From positions 1 through 64,000 of the forward strand of contig CALXLD010000042.1 in the NCBI GenBank assembly GCA_944389105.1: 64,000 nt of DNA, in the 5' to 3' direction. The position numbers were made by a program, and so were the translations under genes. Positions 5,861 to 56,617 of this stretch are shown here, piece by piece. Below the pieces are notes generated by a model, which was given only the letters and a program-made list of their open reading frames with translations, did not search any database and was not told the DNA's origin. Origin of the DNA: an uncultured Spirochaetaceae bacterium. Lineage in GTDB: Bacteria > Spirochaetota > Spirochaetia > Sphaerochaetales > Sphaerochaetaceae. Position 1 is the first letter of the stretch. The number at the start of each line of letters is the position of its first letter.

Positions 5861-6266
5861 GATCGGATTCAACGCGCTTTCGCGCAAATCCAGCGAACGC
5901 AAGGCGCTTAAGCGCAACATGGTCACATCCCTTTTCAGATATGAAAGAATTGAGACCACAAAGGCAAAGGCTCTTGAAGTTAGAAGGATGGCTGAGAAGA
6001 TGATTACTAGGGCTAAGGTTGATTCAGTTCACAACCGCCGTATGATTGCCCGTGATGTCTATGACGAAGCTATCGTAAATAAACTCTTCAAGGAGATCGC
6101 ACCGCTTTTCGCCGACAGAAATGGCGGCTACACAAGAATTCTCAAGACTGGAAACAGACTTGGGGACGCAGCAGAGATGGTAATCCTCGAACTTGTTGAG
6201 AAGACAAAGAAAGAGGAGAAGGCCGATAAGAAGGCTGCAAAGGACAAGAAGGCTGAGAAAGCCTGA
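5850..6266 (+). CDS. rplQ: 50S ribosomal protein L17
   Basis: The conserved L17 core ([40 protein letters not shown]) takes up about the first 118 residues. A Lys/Ala/Glu-rich tail of about 20 residues ([17 protein letters not shown]) extends the protein to 138 aa, slightly longer than usual. It starts inside the end of rpoA and is the last gene of the ribosomal cluster. A rho-independent terminator follows about 50 nt after the stop. Confidence 0.97.
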
Positions 6267-6313
6267 CACGTTTCCCATGACTGGGGAAGCCCAAGACAGA
6301 CATAATGTCTGAA

Positions 6314-48324: not shown

Positions 48325-48882
48325 ATGAAGAAATATCTACCACTATTGATATCCGGGCTGCTGATGATTTTCATCGGTCTGTATATGATACTCCGCCCAA
48401 GCGGATTTCTTTCCGTTGTGATATCTGCATTCGGTATCTATCTTATTATCGATGGCGTCAGGACCTTATTGGGTGCATATAGACTTAAGGATATATTCGG
48501 GAAAGGCATACGCAGCGTATCCATGGGAAAGGCTCTGCTTAATATGATTGCCGGAATTGTCGTAATCATAATAGCTGTCGCAGCTCCTTCGCTTATACCT
48601 ACAATGCTTGTATACCTTGTGGCTGCCGCGTTTGTCATAACAGGCATTGTCGATGTCATTGAGCTTGTGGTTCTTTCAAGAGCCGAAATACCTGCAGCTT
48701 CTCTGGGACTGGAGACGATACTTTCATTTGTATTTGCTATTATCCTTTTCCTTTTCCCGAACTTCCTTACAGGGGTGATAATGACGCTGTTTGCAGCAAT
48801 ACTGTTTGCTTCCGGAGCTATGATGATTTACGGATCTGTCAGTTCAATGGTATATGCACATAAATACAGAAAGCCTGAGTAG
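48325..48882 (+). CDS. HdeD/DUF308 family membrane protein
   Basis: A 185-aa inner-membrane protein made of six hydrophobic segments in three similar hairpins, the DUF308 pattern (SGLLMIFIGLYMILRPSG; IAGIVVIIIAVAAPSLIP; AIILFLFPNFLTGVI). E. coli HdeD is linked to acid resistance, but the biochemical role is not known. It has no ribosome site, and a -10-like box lies 12 nt upstream. It precedes the his operon promoter by only about 14 nt. Confidence 0.82.
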   Translation: MKKYLPLLISGLLMIFIGLYMILRPSGFLSVVISAFGIYLIIDGVRTLLGAYRLKDIFGKGIRSVSMGKALLNMIAGIVVIIIAVAAPSLIPTMLVYLVAAAFVITGIVDVIELVVLSRAEIPAASLGLETILSFVFAIILFLFPNFLTGVIMTLFAAILFASGAMMIYGSVSSMVYAHKYRKPE

Positions 48883-48895
48883 GGTGTCTTTTCTG

Positions 48896-48923
48896 TTGAC
48901 TACACGCTCTTGATTCATGTACT
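48896..48923 (+). promoter_or_regulatory. Promoter of the histidine operon
   Basis: TTGACT (48896-48901), 16-nt spacer, TGTACT (48918-48923, 4/6). The start site would be near 48930, two bases before the ATG of the leader peptide at 48932. A small shift of the -10 call would change this by a base or two. Confidence 0.5.
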
Positions 48924-48931
48924 GTTTTTAC

Positions 48932-48976
48932 ATGGAAAGAAGAAATGCACATCATCATTGCATAGTCAGAACATGA
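48932..48976 (+). CDS. hisL: his operon leader peptide
   Basis: A 14-codon open frame, MERRNAHHHCIVRT then TGA, with three consecutive CAT codons at 48950-48958. It lies 119 nt before hisG and is followed by a terminator hairpin at 49006-49037. Size, repeated His codons and placement match the attenuator leader peptides of enterobacterial his operons, though the sequence is unrelated. Translation speed over the His codons would decide which downstream hairpin forms. No Shine-Dalgarno sequence precedes it. Confidence 0.8.
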   Translation: MERRNAHHHCIVRT

Positions 48977-48981
48977 CAGAT

Positions 48982-49037
48982 GCCATGATGGGTACTTATA
49001 TGCAGAGCCTCCCAATTGGCGGGAGGCTTTTTCTTTT
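48982..49037 (+). terminator. his attenuator: antiterminator and terminator
   Basis: Terminator: AGCCTCCC (49006-49013), loop AATTGGC, GGGAGGCT (49021-49028), perfect 8 bp, then TTTTCTTTT. Antiterminator: GCCA (48982-48985) with TGGC (49017-49020) and TGGG (48989-48992) with CCCA (49011-49014), which uses the terminator's 5' arm. Region 2 (ATGATG, 48985-48990) can also pair with the His codons (CATCAT, 48953-48958), giving the protector hairpin. All three structures are mutually exclusive as attenuation requires. Confidence 0.8.
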
Positions 49038-49050
49038 CAAAGGAGGCGGT

Positions 49051-49908
49051 ATGGCAGCTATAAGCATTGCAGTACAGAAAAGCGGCAGGCTTTCTGAAAA
49101 GAGTCTGGATCTTATCAGGTCATGTGGAATAGATTTCAGTGCAGACAGCCGTGTTCTGAAAACTTCGGCCACGGGATTTCCTCTGGATTTTATCTTTGTC
49201 CGTGATGACGATATTCCGCAGTATGTTGCGGATGGTGTTGCTGATATCGGCATTATAGGCAGGAACGAGTATGATGAGACTGGTCTTGAACTTGAAGTGG
49301 TACGTGACCTTAAATTTGCATCATGCCGTCTTTCAATTGCTGTTCCCCATGGTTTTGATTACAGAGGTCTTAAGTCTCTGGAAGGGAAGAGGATTGCAAC
49401 ATCATATCCCCGTATTCTGTCCAGGATACTTAAAGAGAACGGCGTAAATGCCGAGCCTGTTGTTGTATCGGGGTCGGTTGAAGTTACGGTTGAGGTCGGA
49501 ATTGCAGATGCAATAGCGGATCTCGTTTCAACCGGAACGACTCTCAAGATGAATGGACTGGAGGAAGCAGAGTGCATTTACCGGTCTTCTGCGATTATGA
49601 TAGCCCGTCCTGATCTTCAGGAGGAGAAAAAGGCAATACTTACCAGACTCCTAGAACGCATCGATGCTGTAATGCTTGCTCGTCATCAGAAGTATATTCT
49701 ATTCAATCTTCCTGAGGAGAAGCTCGAAGAAGCTGCTAGGATAATAGGCGGCATGAAGAGCCCTACAGTTACACCATTGATGGACAAAGGATGGGTTTCT
49801 GTGCAATCAGCAGTAGAGGAAGGACGGTTCTGGGCTGTTTTTGAGGAGCTTAGGAAACTTGGAGCTGAAGGCATTCTTGTTATGAATATCGAGAAGATGG
49901 CGGAGTGA
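49051..49908 (+). CDS. hisG: ATP phosphoribosyltransferase, long form
   Basis: A 285-aa first enzyme of histidine synthesis (ATP + PRPP). Length and the C-terminal regulatory domain (about 215-285; RIIGGMKSPTVTPL, VEEGRFWAVFEELRKLGAEGILVMNIEKM) mark the long, self-regulated HisG that needs no HisZ. The catalytic part has ISIAVQKSGRL, GFPLDFIFVRDDDIPQYV and the PRPP loop SVEVTVEVGIADAIADLVSTGTTL. AGGAGG lies 4 nt before the ATG. A longer frame back to 48910 would run through the attenuator and is rejected. Confidence 0.96.
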   Translation: MAAISIAVQKSGRLSEKSLDLIRSCGIDFSADSRVLKTSATGFPLDFIFVRDDDIPQYVADGVADIGIIGRNEYDETGLELEVVRDLKFASCRLSIAVPHGFDYRGLKSLEGKRIATSYPRILSRILKENGVNAEPVVVSGSVEVTVEVGIADAIADLVSTGTTLKMNGLEEAECIYRSSAIMIARPDLQEEKKAILTRLLERIDAVMLARHQKYILFNLPEEKLEEAARIIGGMKSPTVTPLMDKGWVSVQSAVEEGRFWAVFEELRKLGAEGILVMNIEKMAE

Positions 49909-49910
49909 TT

Positions 49911-51197
49911 ATGTATCTGGAGTTCAGGGATTTTGATCAGACGCTTCTCAAGCGTCCGAATGATGGAAACAGGGATATAGAAAAAACCGTCGGCAGGATA
50001 ATAGATGAAGTCAGAGAACACGGCGATGAGGCATTGCGGGAATATGCTCTGAAATTCGATGGATCACAGCTGGATAATCTTTATGCGGATGAAGCAGAGT
50101 TCAGAGAAGCTGAGAAGGCTGTTCCGGAGAATCTGAAGAGGGCTATAAACCATGCTATGCGGAATATAAGGAAATTCCATGAAGCACAGCTTCCATCTGG
50201 GGAATATGCCGAAACTGAAAGCGGAGTCAGATGCTGGAGGAAAATTGTTCCGATATCGAGGGTCGGTTTATATATTCCAGGTGGTACGGCACCTCTTTTC
50301 TCGACGGTTCTGATGCTTGCTGTCCCTGCTTCTGTTGCAGGGTGCAGGGATATTGTACTTGCAACCCCTGCTAGAAACGGCGTGGTGAATCCTGCTGTTC
50401 TCTATGCCGCCTCTGTTTCAGGCGTCCATTCAGTATTGAAAGTCGGCGGAGCACAGGCTATCGCAGCATTTGCCTATGGCACTGAAAGCATCCGGAAGCG
50501 TGATAAGATATTCGGGCCAGGAAACAGTTATGTCACAGAGGCCAAGAAGCAGGTTGCTTCAGTCACTTCTATTGATATGCTGGCAGGACCATCTGAAGTC
50601 ATGGTGGCTGTGGACAGCTCATCTGTGCCGGAATATGCAGCAGCTGACCTTCTCTCCCAGGCCGAGCATGGAAAAGACAGCCAGGCAATGCTTCTGATAA
50701 GAGCGGAGACAAGGGAAGAGGCTGAAAGAATACACGATTCAGTTGAGGCTGCAATAGAAAGGGAACTTGGACAGATCGGGCGTCATGAATATATGCTTCC
50801 ATCTCTTTCCCATTCATTCTCGTTCCCTGTTTATTCCGATGAGGATCTTGTTGATGCGATAAATGCCTATGCTCCTGAGCACCTTATTATCTCGACAAGG
50901 AATCCGGAGGAAATCCTCAGCGGCGTGGAGAATGCTGGGTCTGTATTCCTCGGTTCGTTTACTCCTGAGTCAGCTGGCGATTATGCTTCCGGAACAAATC
51001 ATACACTTCCGACCTCAGGATGGGCCAGATCTTCTTCCGGTGTTTCCGTAGACTCCTTCATAAAGAAAATCACAGTGCAGCAGATTGATAGAAATGGGTT
51101 AGAGGGTCTTGGAGGGACTATAAGATGTATGGCTGAGGCAGAGGGGCTCGAAGCTCATAGCTATGCTGTGAAAGTGAGGTTGTCCGATGATAGATAA
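49911..51197 (+). CDS. hisD: Histidinol dehydrogenase
   Basis: A 428-aa zinc enzyme that makes the last two oxidations to histidine. Signatures: PISRVGLYIPGGTAPLFSTVLM (about 103-124), VGGAQAIAAFAYGTESI, the FGPGNSYVTEAKKQV motif (about 203), LLSQAEHGKDSQ with the zinc/catalytic residues, and APEHLII. ATG 49911 follows the hisG stop by 2 nt; a GTG at 49905 overlapping that stop is an alternative. It overlaps hisC by 11 nt. Confidence 0.97.
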   Translation: MYLEFRDFDQTLLKRPNDGNRDIEKTVGRIIDEVREHGDEALREYALKFDGSQLDNLYADEAEFREAEKAVPENLKRAINHAMRNIRKFHEAQLPSGEYAETESGVRCWRKIVPISRVGLYIPGGTAPLFSTVLMLAVPASVAGCRDIVLATPARNGVVNPAVLYAASVSGVHSVLKVGGAQAIAAFAYGTESIRKRDKIFGPGNSYVTEAKKQVASVTSIDMLAGPSEVMVAVDSSSVPEYAAADLLSQAEHGKDSQAMLLIRAETREEAERIHDSVEAAIERELGQIGRHEYMLPSLSHSFSFPVYSDEDLVDAINAYAPEHLIISTRNPEEILSGVENAGSVFLGSFTPESAGDYASGTNHTLPTSGWARSSSGVSVDSFIKKITVQQIDRNGLEGLGGTIRCMAEAEGLEAHSYAVKVRLSDDR

Positions 51198-52230
51198 TCT
51201 TCTCAATCCATGGATAAAGGATCTTGTTCCATATAGTTCTGCAAGGAGTGAATTTTCCGGAAAGGCGGAAATACTTCTGGATGCGAATGAGAGCTGGGAA
51301 GGTGGAAATGATGGTATAAACAGATATCCTGACCCTCTGGCAAAAGAACTACGCAGGGAAATAGAGCGTGTCATGGGAATCCCATATGAGATGAGCGCTA
51401 TAGGAAACGGCTCTGATGAAGTCATTGATATGCTTATCAGGATGTTCTGCTGCCCTGGCAGGGATTCAATAATGATTGAGCGGCCGACTTATGGTACATA
51501 TTCAGTTTTTGCCTCTACTTCCAATGTTTCTGTGATTGATGTGCCTTTGACTCCGGATCTTGATCTGGATGAGGAGGCGATGATGGAAGCGATAGTGCGG
51601 AAAAAGCCTAAAATTGTCTTCATATGCTCTCCTAATAATCCTACAGGCCGGGTTTATCCTCTGGAGAAGATAGTCCGCATTGCAGAGATCAATGAAGGAA
51701 TAACTGCCGTGGATGAGGCTTATGCTGATTTTGCATTGAACTTTGAATCTGCAATCAGCTATATAAAGAAAAATCCAAGGATAGTTGTCCTGCGTACATT
51801 CTCCAAGGCTTATGGAAAGGCTGGCGCAAGGCTTGGAATCCTGGTTTCCGATCCTGAGATACAGAAAGTATTCATGAAAGCCAAGCCTCCTTATAATGTC
51901 TCTAGCCCTGCAGAGAAAGCCGGTCTGGATGCATTATCTGAATATGATGAGGCAATGGAAAGAGTCCGGGAGACTATTGCAAGGAGGAATGAGCTGACAG
52001 CTTTTCTTCAGACACTTCCATATGTCGTCAGGGTTTTCCCTTCCGAGGCTAATTTCGTTCTTGTCCGGGTGTCAGATGCTGCAGCTCTTTATTCCTATCT
52101 TCTAGAAATGGGAATTGTTGTCAGAAATAGATCATCAGACCTTCTTCTTGAGAATACTCTGAGAATAACGATAGGTTCTGAGATGGAAATGGAGAAACTG
52201 AAGGAGGCTTTGAATGGCTGGAATGGATAA
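51187..52230 (+). CDS. hisC: Histidinol-phosphate aminotransferase
   Basis: A 347-aa class I/II PLP aminotransferase. Motifs: LLDANESWEGG near residue 28, NGSDEVIDMLIRMFC, ICSPNNPTGRVYP (about 138-150), DEAYADF (about 176) and the PLP Lys in VLRTFSKAYGKAGARLG (about 205). It transfers an amino group to imidazole acetol phosphate. It overlaps hisD by 11 nt and hisB by 17 nt, so the genes are tightly coupled. Confidence 0.95.
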   Translation: MIDNLLNPWIKDLVPYSSARSEFSGKAEILLDANESWEGGNDGINRYPDPLAKELRREIERVMGIPYEMSAIGNGSDEVIDMLIRMFCCPGRDSIMIERPTYGTYSVFASTSNVSVIDVPLTPDLDLDEEAMMEAIVRKKPKIVFICSPNNPTGRVYPLEKIVRIAEINEGITAVDEAYADFALNFESAISYIKKNPRIVVLRTFSKAYGKAGARLGILVSDPEIQKVFMKAKPPYNVSSPAEKAGLDALSEYDEAMERVRETIARRNELTAFLQTLPYVVRVFPSEANFVLVRVSDAAALYSYLLEMGIVVRNRSSDLLLENTLRITIGSEMEMEKLKEALNGWNG

Positions 52231-53350
52231 GAAGAAGGTCCTTTTCATTGATCGGGATGGTGTGATCGTGAAGGAGCGCCAGGTTGATACCTATGAAAGC
52301 ATTGAGTATATCCCGCATGTTTTTGAAGCACTCCGGGAGATATCCAGAAAGACGGATTATCTTCTTGTTATGGTATCGAACCAGGATGGTGTGGGTACAT
52401 CAGCTTTCACTTATGAAGGCTTCCAGGGCCCCGCGGACCGTATATTCTCGACATTGCGCGGAGAAGGAATCGTATTCGATGAGATAAATATCGATTTATC
52501 TTTTCCAGAAGACAATCTTCCTACAAGAAAGCCCCTTACCGGAATGATAGACCGATACAGATCCGCTGAATATGATATGTCTTCATCTTTCATGGTCGGG
52601 GACAGGCTTACTGATATGATGCTTGCAGAAAGCATGGGGTGCCGCGGCTTTCTTCTCAATGCTGATGAGCTTGAGGTTCCTGATGAACTTGTCAGCACTG
52701 TAGCAATGAAGACGGGTTCCTGGCTTGATATAGCGGGGTATCTCATTCCAGATGGGACTCTTCCGCACAGAACAGCTGCTGTTGTAAGGAATACAAAAGA
52801 GACGGAGATTTCCCTTTCTGTAGATATTGATGGGACTGGAGAGGGAAGGATAGAGACTTCTCTTGGCTTTTTTAACCATATGCTGGATCAGGTTGTGCGT
52901 CATTCCCGTTTTGATATCGCCGGTAATGTGAAAGGCGACCTTTTCGTAGATGAGCATCATAGCGTCGAAGATACCGCACTTGTTTTAGGAGAGGCTGTCA
53001 GGAAAGCTCTCGGCGATAAAAGAGGAATAGAAAGATATGGTTATGAGATTGTGATGATGGATGATACAGTGGCAACTGCAGCAATTGATTTCTCAGGCCG
53101 CCCTGAATTCATCTGGGATGTCAGGTTCTCAATGGAATATATCGGAGAGTTTCCTTCCGAGCTTATCAGGCATTTCTTCCGGTCTTTCTCTTCTTCGGCC
53201 TGCTGTAATCTCTATCTTTCTGCAACAGAGGGAGGAAACAGCCATCATACTGCAGAGGCTGTTTTCAAGGCATTTGCACGCGCAATGCGGAAAGCTGTAA
53301 GGAGAATCCCCGGGGACACAAGGGTGCAGAGCACAAAGGGTGTATTATGA
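52214..53350 (+). CDS. hisB: Bifunctional histidinol-phosphatase / imidazoleglycerol-phosphate dehydratase
   Basis: A 378-aa fusion. Residues about 1-165 form a HAD-type histidinol-phosphatase (LFIDRDGVIVKERQ; MVSNQDGVGTSAF; FMVGDRLTDMMLAESMG). Residues about 190-378 form the IGP dehydratase with the manganese motifs FFNHMLDQVVRHS, DEHHSVEDTALVLGEA, HFFRSFSSSA and NSHHTAEAVFKAFARAM. This fusion is known from gamma-proteobacteria, Campylobacter and Bacteroidetes. Its presence here is one sign that the operon may have been acquired. A second possible start lies 9 nt downstream. Confidence 0.96.
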   Translation: MAGMDKKKVLFIDRDGVIVKERQVDTYESIEYIPHVFEALREISRKTDYLLVMVSNQDGVGTSAFTYEGFQGPADRIFSTLRGEGIVFDEINIDLSFPEDNLPTRKPLTGMIDRYRSAEYDMSSSFMVGDRLTDMMLAESMGCRGFLLNADELEVPDELVSTVAMKTGSWLDIAGYLIPDGTLPHRTAAVVRNTKETEISLSVDIDGTGEGRIETSLGFFNHMLDQVVRHSRFDIAGNVKGDLFVDEHHSVEDTALVLGEAVRKALGDKRGIERYGYEIVMMDDTVATAAIDFSGRPEFIWDVRFSMEYIGEFPSELIRHFFRSFSSSACCNLYLSATEGGNSHHTAEAVFKAFARAMRKAVRRIPGDTRVQSTKGVL

Positions 53351-53937
53351 TAGCCGTAATCAAATACAATGCTGGTAATATTCTTTCTGTGATGAACGCG
53401 CTTTCAAGACTTGGGAAGGAGGCAGTCCTTACCGATGACCCAGAGATTATAAGCAGTGCTGATAAAGTGATTTTCCCGGGAGTCGGGGAAGCCTCTTCTG
53501 CAATGCGTTATCTTAATGAGAGAGGATTGAGCACTGTTATAAGATCTCTGAAGCAGCCTTTCCTTGGAATATGCCTTGGAATGCAGCTGATGTGCGCCTC
53601 TTCTGAAGAAGGTGATACCGAATGTCTCGGCATCTTTCCTTCTGAGATTATCCAGTTCCGAAGAGGTGCAGGATGGAAAGTTCCCCATATGGGCTGGAAT
53701 ACGCTGGAAAACATATCCGGGCCTCTTTATAAGGATACCAAGGAAATGGAGTATGTCTATTTTGTCCATTCCTATTACGCTCCGCTTTCAGAATACACCT
53801 CAGCGGAGACTGAATATGCTGGCGTAAGGTTCTCGGCTTCTCTCTCCAAGGATAATTTCCATGGTATGCAGTTCCATCCTGAGAAGAGCGGAGATGCTGG
53901 AGAACGTATGCTCAGATGTTTTCTGGAGGATTTATGA
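53347..53937 (+). CDS. hisH: Imidazole glycerol phosphate synthase glutaminase subunit
   Basis: A 196-aa class I glutamine amidotransferase. The nucleophile Cys is in FLGICLGMQLM (about residue 79), and the catalytic His/Glu are in GMQFHPEKSGDAGERML (about 176-179). The oxyanion region VIFPGVGEASSAM is present. It feeds ammonia to HisF to close the imidazole ring and release AICAR. It overlaps hisB and hisA by 4 nt each. Confidence 0.96.
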   Translation: MIAVIKYNAGNILSVMNALSRLGKEAVLTDDPEIISSADKVIFPGVGEASSAMRYLNERGLSTVIRSLKQPFLGICLGMQLMCASSEEGDTECLGIFPSEIIQFRRGAGWKVPHMGWNTLENISGPLYKDTKEMEYVYFVHSYYAPLSEYTSAETEYAGVRFSASLSKDNFHGMQFHPEKSGDAGERMLRCFLEDL

Positions 53938-54647
53938 TAGTCATTCCTGCTATTGATATCATAGACGGACGTCCTGTAAGACTTTCAGAGGGGGATTATT
54001 CTCGTCTGACTTCATATTCTCTCACAGCACTTGAGGCTGCAAGAAAATTTGAAGATGGCGGTCTGTCCCGGCTTCACCTTGTGGATCTGGATGCTGCCAG
54101 AGGAAGCGGAAACAATCTTGCTGTTCTTGAAACAATAGCTTCAAAGACAAGCCTTTCTGTTGATTTTGGTGGTGGTATACGTTCCGAGGAGTCTGTCCAT
54201 AGTGCTTTTGATGCCGGTGCAAGCTATGTGAATGTTGGCTCAGCTGCGGTGAAGAATCCTATGGATGTCTGCAGATGGAATGAGCTTTATCCTGGGCGGA
54301 TCATTCTATCATCCGATGCCAGAGATGGCCGTATTGCAGTATCTGGATGGATGGAGAATACAGATCTGGAGATTATTCCTTTTATAAGGAAATTCCTTGC
54401 AAATGGAATAAAGACAGCAGTCGTTACAGATATATCTAAGGATGGTATGCTTTCCGGACCATCATTTGCTTTGTATGAGAGGCTATCTTCGGAACTTCCT
54501 GAATTGAATCTTATAGCTTCTGGTGGTGTTTCTTCGCTTTCTGATCTTGTCGCGCTGCGCTCTGCTGGCATTTATGGTGCTATTGTAGGGAAGGCTTACT
54601 ATGAGGGGAGAATTTCGATAAAGGAGATGAAGGAGGCTGAATGTTAG
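53934..54647 (+). CDS. hisA: ProFAR isomerase
   Basis: A 237-aa TIM-barrel isomerase. The half-barrel repeats are seen: [19 protein letters not shown] near the start (catalytic Asp), [13 protein letters not shown] and [13 protein letters not shown] (second Asp), then [11 protein letters not shown]. It opens the ribose of ProFAR to make PRFAR for HisF. The ATG at 53934 overlaps the hisH stop; the frame from 53916 would extend into hisH. It overlaps hisF by 7 nt. Confidence 0.95.
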
Positions 54648-55402
54648 CAAAGCGGATAATCCCATGTCTTGATGTGAAGGATGGCAGGACTGTAAAGGGC
54701 GTGAATTTCGTCCAGCTAAGGGATGCGGGTTCAGCTCTTGAGCTTGCTGAGTTCTATTCTTCCCAAGGGGCTGATGAGCTTGTGTTCCTCGATATAACAG
54801 CAACAATTGAAAACAGGGGAACGATGACTGATCTGGTCCGTTCTGTTGCCAGGCGTATCTCAATTCCTTTTACAGTTGGCGGAGGGATAAGGACTGAAGA
54901 TGATGTGGAGAGGATGCTCAGCGCTGGAGCGGATAAGATATCAGTGAACTCTGCAGCAGCCAGAAATCCTGGACTCCTGAATACATTGGCTTCAAGATTC
55001 GGAAGCCAGTGTGTCGTGCTTGCTCTTGATGCCAGATCCAATCCTCTTTTCCCCTCTGGATATGAAGCTGTTCTTGATGGCGGCCGTACTCCTTCTGGCC
55101 TGGATGCCCTTTCATGGGCGAGGGAAGCCTGTGATAGAGGAGCTGGGGAAATACTTCTGACATCTATGGATAAGGATGGTACGAAGGATGGCTTTGCTGT
55201 TGACTTAACCCGGATAATCAGCAGTAATATTGATATTCCCGTTATAGCCAGTGGTGGCGCTGGGAAGATGGAAGATTTTAGGACGGTTTTTGAAGATGGA
55301 ATGGCGGATGCCGCTCTTGCTGCATCGGTTTTTCATTTCCATGAGATAGACATTCCGGAACTTAAATGCTATCTCAGGCAGTCCGGTATTCCTGTCAGAT
55401 GA
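54641..55402 (+). CDS. hisF: Imidazole glycerol phosphate synthase cyclase subunit
   Basis: A 253-aa TIM-barrel related to HisA. Catalytic residues lie in [17 protein letters not shown] (first Asp, about 11) and [13 protein letters not shown] (second Asp, about 175). [25 protein letters not shown] holds the phosphate loop, and [11 protein letters not shown] follows. It forms the synthase with HisH. It overlaps hisA by 7 nt and is 10 nt before hisI. Confidence 0.97.
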
Positions 55403-55412
55403 GGGGATTGTT

Positions 55413-56021
55413 ATGACTATAGATTTTGAGAAAGGCGGTGGACTTGTTCCTGCGGTTGTCCAGGATGCTGTTACCAGAAAAGTCCTGATGCTGGGATATA
55501 TGAACGAGGAAGCCTATAAGCTGACTCTTGACCGTGGCCTTGTTACCTTCTATTCAAGGTCCCGGGGACGGATCTGGACAAAAGGGGAGACTAGCGGGAA
55601 TTTCCTTCAGGTCAGGGAGATCCTTGCTGATTGTGATGGCGATACGCTTCTTGTAAAGGCAATCCCTTCCGGTCCTGTGTGTCATACGGGTTCTGATACA
55701 TGCTTCGGTGAGGAGAATCAGCCGACAGAAGTTTCTTCTCCTGAGTTTCTTTTCTATCTTGAGTCTGTAATCCATGACAGAATGACAAACCCTGTAGAGG
55801 GCTCTTATACAAATCATCTTTTCTCAAGAGGTCTTAACAGGATTGCCCAGAAGGTCGGGGAGGAAGCTGTGGAACTTGTCATTGCCTCCAAAGATGATGA
55901 TAAGGATCTGTTCCTTGGTGAAGGGGCTGATCTGATGTATCACTTCCTTGTTCTTCTTGCTCAGAAAGGCTGTTCGCTATCTGAAGTTATTGATGTTCTG
56001 AAGGAGAGACATTCCCGCTGA
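55413..56021 (+). CDS. hisI: Bifunctional phosphoribosyl-AMP cyclohydrolase / phosphoribosyl-ATP pyrophosphatase
   Basis: A 202-aa HisIE fusion. The cyclohydrolase domain (about 1-105) has LMLGYMNEEAYKLTL, FYSRSRGRIWTKGETSGN and the metal Cys residues in DCDGDTLLV and GPVCHTGSDTCF. The pyrophosphatase domain (about 113-202) has NPVEGSYTNHLF and RIAQKVGEEAVELVIASK. It carries out the second and third steps of the pathway. The pathway is then complete in this operon. The next gene starts in its last base (TGATG). Confidence 0.96.
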   Translation: MTIDFEKGGGLVPAVVQDAVTRKVLMLGYMNEEAYKLTLDRGLVTFYSRSRGRIWTKGETSGNFLQVREILADCDGDTLLVKAIPSGPVCHTGSDTCFGEENQPTEVSSPEFLFYLESVIHDRMTNPVEGSYTNHLFSRGLNRIAQKVGEEAVELVIASKDDDKDLFLGEGADLMYHFLVLLAQKGCSLSEVIDVLKERHSR

Positions 56022-56617
56022 TGTCTTTTCTTGATGTTGCTTCAGAGTTTCTGGAGGCAGAGGAGATAGAAGAGGAAGGAACTTTTTACGATGGAAGGAA
56101 TTTTGAGGGTGTTACCATACGCTCATCATCTTTCCGTTCAGTTTCGTTTTCATCGGCTTCATTTCTCAATGCTTCGATATCTGATACAGTTTTTGAATCC
56201 TGTGATTTTTCCAATGCTGATTTCTCATCATCTTCAATGCATAGGGTATCTTTCCGTGAGTGCCGGCTTACAGGGGCCGTGTTCCTTTCTTCGAGGCTGA
56301 AACATCTGGAGATAATAAATTCAGCATCACGTTATTCATCTTTCGATAATGCATATATCGATGATTGCCATTTCTCCGATTCGGATTTCCCTGATTCCTC
56401 TTTCTCCGGAATCCGGCATAAAGCATTCTCAATTACATCATGTAATTTGGCAGGGTGTATCTTCCGTGGAACTTCCCTTCAGAACTTATGCCTTTCGAAT
56501 TCAAAAGTCGGGAGGACTTCTTTCTCTGAAAATCTGAGGGAATTGCGTGGCGCGAATCTTGATCTCGAACAGTCACTGGATATAATACGCTCACTTGGTG
56601 TTAATATTATTCCTTAA
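56021..56617 (+). CDS. Pentapeptide-repeat-like protein at the end of the his operon
   Basis: A 198-aa protein with about 20 imperfect A(D/N)LxX-type five-residue repeats from residue about 25 to 185, dominated by SF/SS variants (FRSVSFSSASFLNASISDTVFESCDFSNADF-type). It should fold as a right-handed quadrilateral beta helix. There is no signal peptide. Role unknown; some relatives mimic DNA and protect gyrase. Its ATG overlaps the hisI stop, so it is translated with the his genes. Codon choice is a little more A/T-rich than the his genes. Confidence 0.75.
   Translation: MSFLDVASEFLEAEEIEEEGTFYDGRNFEGVTIRSSSFRSVSFSSASFLNASISDTVFESCDFSNADFSSSSMHRVSFRECRLTGAVFLSSRLKHLEIINSASRYSSFDNAYIDDCHFSDSDFPDSSFSGIRHKAFSITSCNLAGCIFRGTSLQNLCLSNSKVGRTSFSENLRELRGANLDLEQSLDIIRSLGVNIIP

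Follow-up and report, generated by a model that had tools for sequence, protein, structure and literature searches.

A conserved, probable histidine attenuator with a predicted leaderless leader peptide upstream of the his operon in an uncultured spirochaete genus

The window analysed here, a stretch of 64,000 nucleotides from an uncultured Spirochaetaceae bacterium, carries a complete hisGDC(NB)HAF(IE) operon, the product of which is histidine, downstream of an intrinsic terminator. All of its genes lie on the forward strand: hisG in its long form with the C-terminal domain (49051-49908; TIGR00070 and TIGR03455 above cut-off), preceded by the Shine-Dalgarno sequence AAGGAGG (49040-49046), hisD (49905-51197; TIGR00069), hisC (51187-52230; TIGR01141), a bifunctional hisNB (52214-53350; NF003937, E 1.5e-124, 415.6 bits, just under the cut-off of 443), hisH (53347-53937; TIGR01855), hisA (53937-54647; TIGR00007), hisF (54641-55402; TIGR00735) and hisIE (55413-56021; NF002747). 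An ORF for a pentapeptide-repeat protein (56021-56617) begins at the last base of hisIE and is apparently a member of the operon. On the other side of the terminator, the gene at 48325-48882 is HdeD-like by reading of its sequence and has no NCBIfam match. The source assembly comprises 2.1 Mb in 47 contigs and is ~91% complete, and its closest named matches are MAGs of uncultured Spirochaetales/Spirochaetaceae (83-92% HisG identity). The genus sample consisted of 48 genomes, the source genome included, with a long HisG found in 41; together with five loci from other families (L123-L127), these gave a set of 46 spirochaete regions upstream of hisG, all with long HisG.

Ahead of hisG lies a short leader ORF, MERRNAHHHCIVRT (48932-48976, forward strand), whose 14 codons run from ATG at 48932 through three CAT codons (48950-48958) to TGA at 48974-48976, with the stop where the preliminary description had put it. 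As in an attenuator, the leader repeats codons for the amino acid that the operon makes. A sigma-70-type promoter, earlier assigned to 48896-48923, is likewise present on the forward strand at 48896-48925, the earlier end being 2 nt short: TTGACT (-35, 48896-48901) and TACTGT (-10, 48920-48925) are separated by an 18-bp spacer, and the -10 box ends 6 nt 5′ of the leader AUG. Across the same-genus loci this arrangement was nearly constant, positions -12, -11 and -7 being T, A and T in 39/39, 36/39 and 37/39 respectively, and all 39 leaders began with A (+1) after a pyrimidine (-1). The first T of TTGAC lay 35 or 36 nt from the leader ATG in 38 of the 39; in the remaining locus (L120 or L121) the count had caught a second, ATG-nearer TTGAC, and the proper -35 is also at 36. 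The corresponding distance in other families was 35 in L123 and 37 in L124 and L125, and in L127 a short 5′ UTR apparently precedes the leader. A Shine-Dalgarno-like 4-mer at -18 to -5 was found in just one of the 39 same-genus loci. These loci thus show the features of leaderless mRNAs: they lack a Shine-Dalgarno sequence, and 6-7 nt separate the -10 box from the AUG. From this spacing and the missing Shine-Dalgarno sequence we infer the actual transcription start site, which is predicted to be the first base of the AUG (48932).

Starts of this type look ordinary in the lineage of the source genome, because a genome-wide search for the same promoter followed after 6 nt by ATG gave 33 matches (L128-L157), compared with 15 in a reversed control, and about half of the 33 were starts of long ORFs lacking a Shine-Dalgarno sequence. 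Such starts include those of genes that, named by eye, are apparently recO and genes for NAD synthase, a Fur-like protein, endonuclease IV and cysteine desulfurase. A published genome survey found leaderless genes in 6/18 spirochaetes, at a mean of 3.9% (PMC3160421). It is conceivable that the attenuator is real and only the leaderless step is wrong, with the leader starting farther upstream or behind a normal 5′ UTR, since some relatives have in-frame ATGs ~15 nt upstream; however, these upstream codons share bases with the conserved -10 box, and the near absence of Shine-Dalgarno-like sequences also speaks against this arrangement, which we consider unlikely.

Downstream of its start, the leader RNA contains four segments with alternative pairings, all on the forward strand, and its predicted fold, at -41.7 kcal/mol (z -4.85), is more stable than chance would give. 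Region 1 (48950-48966) consists of the His codons (48950-48958) and the bases following them. Its partner, region 2 (GATGCCATGATGGG, 48979-48992, with the core GCCATGATGGG at 48982-48992), is the alternative partner of both region 1 and region 3. Region 3 (49006-49020) comprises the arm AGCCTCCC (49006-49013) and the loop AATTGGC, its CCCA and TGGC pairing with region 2. The terminator (3:4; 49006-49032) is formed by AGCCTCCC and GGGAGGCT (49021-49028), followed by a T-run (49028-49032), and it stands between the leader ORF and the first structural gene, as expected of an attenuator. All pairings proposed previously were present, namely CATCAT with ATGATG, GCCA/TGGC plus TGGG/CCCA, and AGCCTCCC/GGGAGGCT with its T-run. 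Leader, region 2 and terminator were all kept in 39 of 41 same-genus genomes. Because MAFFT alignments placed the terminator arms wrongly across clades, pairings were scored sequence by sequence and by swapping partners in 10,000 permutations.

By these measures the 1:2 and 3:4 pairings were well supported. The His codons themselves form 1:2 (CATCAT/ATGATG), which extends beyond them, and its energies covary within the genus: native partners paired better than swapped ones, and 0/10,000 permutations were as good. This is a protector pairing that excludes 2:3. The 3:4 terminator was strong in all 40 leaders tested (mean z -3.39, each below -1.64), and its stem has undergone many replacements of pair type, most positions being occupied by more than two kinds of pair or so across the leaders. 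Region 2, in which GCCA and TGG were invariant in 26 genus sequences, mostly begins 1-8 nt past the leader stop codon. Given the usual footprint of a ribosome, a region so placed would be covered by a ribosome at the stop codon and left uncovered by a ribosome stalled on the His codons.

Of the parts of the attenuator, 2:3, the antiterminator, is both weakest and least certain. Here it is an interrupted helix of 4+4 bp (GCCA/TGGC plus TGGG/CCCA) with an energy of -9.4 kcal/mol, compared with -16.2 for 3:4, and for this sequence it is no better than shuffles (z 0.02). Over all sequences, native 2:3 pairs beat swapped ones in all but 1 of 10,000 permutations, a signal that lies between clades only and rests on few independent events; in the main clade of the genus regions 2 and 3 hardly vary, leaving no room for covariation. 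The pairing is nevertheless kept with other sequences, as hairpins of the type AGGTGG-TTTTG...CAAAAGGTCGTCCT in L110-L119 and as GAAGTGCG/CGCATTTC in L124-L126. A 2:3 pairing that is weak and in many leaders falls short of significance would fit a leader ORF that senses His-tRNA without a classical 2:3 structure, with 3:4 formation determined solely by the stalled or translating ribosome or by coupling, or with control exerted mainly on the stability or translation of the leader mRNA. This scheme is very improbable in our judgement, as complementarity between regions 2 and 3 persists across clades of differing sequence, and a T-run terminator upstream of a separate hisG Shine-Dalgarno sequence favours transcriptional control.

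Conservation of the His-rich leader and its hairpins in close relatives, proposed at the outset as one of the observations on which a histidine attenuator would stand or fall, was borne out. A short His-rich ORF was found 111-156 nt upstream of hisG in 39 of the 41 same-genus genomes with long HisG, and before hisG in all five spirochaetes of other families with long HisG (L123-L127). With dinucleotide shuffles of the 46 upstream regions as the chance control, the ORF was observed in 43/46 regions against a mean of 0.55/46; of the remaining three, L101 and L108 lack it and L122 (MLRSIHFHHFSL) has H.HH in a looser sense only. Leader peptides differ between same-genus genomes (MERRNGHHHHSAES, MRKIAHHHHLLS, MKAIKRHHHHFVF, MIYRNTEAHHHTSRTA) while keeping the His cluster, and the His run is maintained through synonymous CAT/CAC changes (116 CAT and 37 CAC over 44 leaders) and gaps that preserve the frame (3 or 6 nt). 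An intrinsic terminator behind the gene at 48325-48882 would be nothing unusual, yet a constitutive terminator with a meaningless short ORF between the HdeD-like gene and hisG deserves practically no credence, given the shuffle result, the retention of the ORF in 39/41 relatives and the leader's own promoter between upstream gene and terminator.

In short-HisG spirochaetes (L158-L175) no His-rich ORF was found before hisG. The regulatory leader appears to go with operons of the long-HisG type. In G025 and G018, members of the genus with long HisG, hisG directly follows the HdeD-like gene, and leader and terminator are absent; this and the small number of His codons, only three, count against an attenuator. 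In both of these genomes (L176, 2010-2055; L177) hisG is preceded by GCTAGAGATTAGAATCC, in which repeats (CCTCC or CCTTT) are complementary to the hisG Shine-Dalgarno sequence and might base-pair with it; this region gave no Rfam match. Five genomes of the genus without long HisG (G005, G013, G022, G041 and G032) have a distant short HisG match (~30% identity), which may reflect contamination or gene replacement.

We regard it as highly probable that the his operon is controlled here by ribosome-mediated attenuation of transcription, and, judging from the sequence, leader and terminator very probably turn the operon on upon histidine shortage. In this attenuator, transcription would begin with the first base of the leader's start codon and a 70S ribosome would load on the leaderless 5′ end. 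With histidyl-tRNA plentiful, the ribosome would reach the UGA at 48974 and cover the first half of region 2, so that 3:4 would pair and polymerase would terminate at 49028-49032, before hisG. When histidyl-tRNA is scarce, we infer that the ribosome would stall on the three CAU codons and cover region 1; region 2 would then be free to pair with region 3 in the cell, blocking the terminator and allowing hisGDC(NB)HAF(IE) to be transcribed in response to the lack of histidine. Without translation, 1:2 and 3:4 would form and transcription would stop. If the leaderless reading is true, transcription and translation of the leader share one starting base.

The comparison with the enterobacterial his leader, drawn in the preliminary description, holds for the His-rich leader, the alternative 1:2 and 3:4 pairings with a candidate 2:3, the intrinsic terminator and the hisGDC(NB)HAF(IE) genes downstream. 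It fails at the 5′ end, where there is no Shine-Dalgarno sequence and the predicted start coincides with the leader AUG, leaving no 5′ UTR; further, 2:3 is weaker than in enterobacterial hisL (RF00514), and there are three His codons in place of seven in a row. Rfam RF00514 (His_leader) gave no match in the window or in the leader, even at E up to 10. The same is true of the His attenuators reported from Firmicutes, which also have 3-5 His codons and a terminator and antiterminator before his genes, in another phylum and with other sequences (PMC9413887). The view that histidine attenuation is known mainly from Proteobacteria therefore needs revision, both for these Firmicutes lineages (PMC9413887) and because His-rich ORFs were present in 60/69 mostly Bacteroidota regions upstream of hisG. 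These Bacteroidota leaders (L013-L081), examined at the level of their ORFs, likewise precede a long HisG (~50-55% identical); unlike the same-genus spirochaetes, in which the distance is fixed at 6 nt, they have a Bacteroidota -7 box lying ~4-45 nt from the ATG. Our search for published His attenuation in spirochaetes or Bacteroidetes covered the open-access literature and found nothing relevant, an absence that carries little weight. Some Bacteroidetes attenuators reportedly appear as early as Vitreschak et al. (2004).

The kind of switch is already known, and its distinctive predicted feature is the leaderless leader peptide. Leaderless attenuator peptides have been described for leuL, trpL and ilvL of Streptomyces lividans (PMC8079986) and trpL of Sinorhizobium (PMC7298713), where the leader AUG is also at the transcription start and an amino-acid gene is attenuated; those cases concern other amino acids and phyla, and their starts were measured, whereas ours is predicted. 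On phylogenetic evidence, the present locus would add Spirochaetota to the phyla with ribosome-mediated His attenuation, in a form that existing RNA models miss. The ~40 genomes would offer a clean natural case in which the leader peptide of a transcription attenuator apparently begins at +1, and with it a means of studying how soon ribosome loading has to occur if attenuation is to function.

Horizontal spread from gammaproteobacteria has been proposed for the HisNB fusion and the compact operon (PMC1963479, PMC8305728), and the 2007 survey found HisNB in 0/4 spirochaetes. The leader may have moved together with the his operon. We somewhat favour the idea that a leaderless His attenuator became fixed genus-wide, possibly acquired with a compact his operon of Bacteroidota/gammaproteobacterial type and rebuilt onto a sigma-70 promoter.

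Elsewhere in the source genome trpE (PF04715) was not found, the assembly being ~91% complete. The interpretation of the his leader as an attenuator is supported by the leaderless starts elsewhere in the genome and by another attenuator that this genome and its genus possess, in which a leader led by a Shine-Dalgarno sequence, MNKITLISSSLLLSVLIITC, precedes ilvH/ilvN-ilvC-leuA (minus strand of L183, contig C40 of the source genome, reverse-complement offsets ~6153-6290; also L185-L203). Its pairings are ACCACGG/CCCGTGGT and GCCCG/CGGGC with a T-run. Similar ilv leaders were among the listed ORFs at 17 out of 19 loci of the genus, and at one further locus such a leader is visible downstream of the listed ORF.
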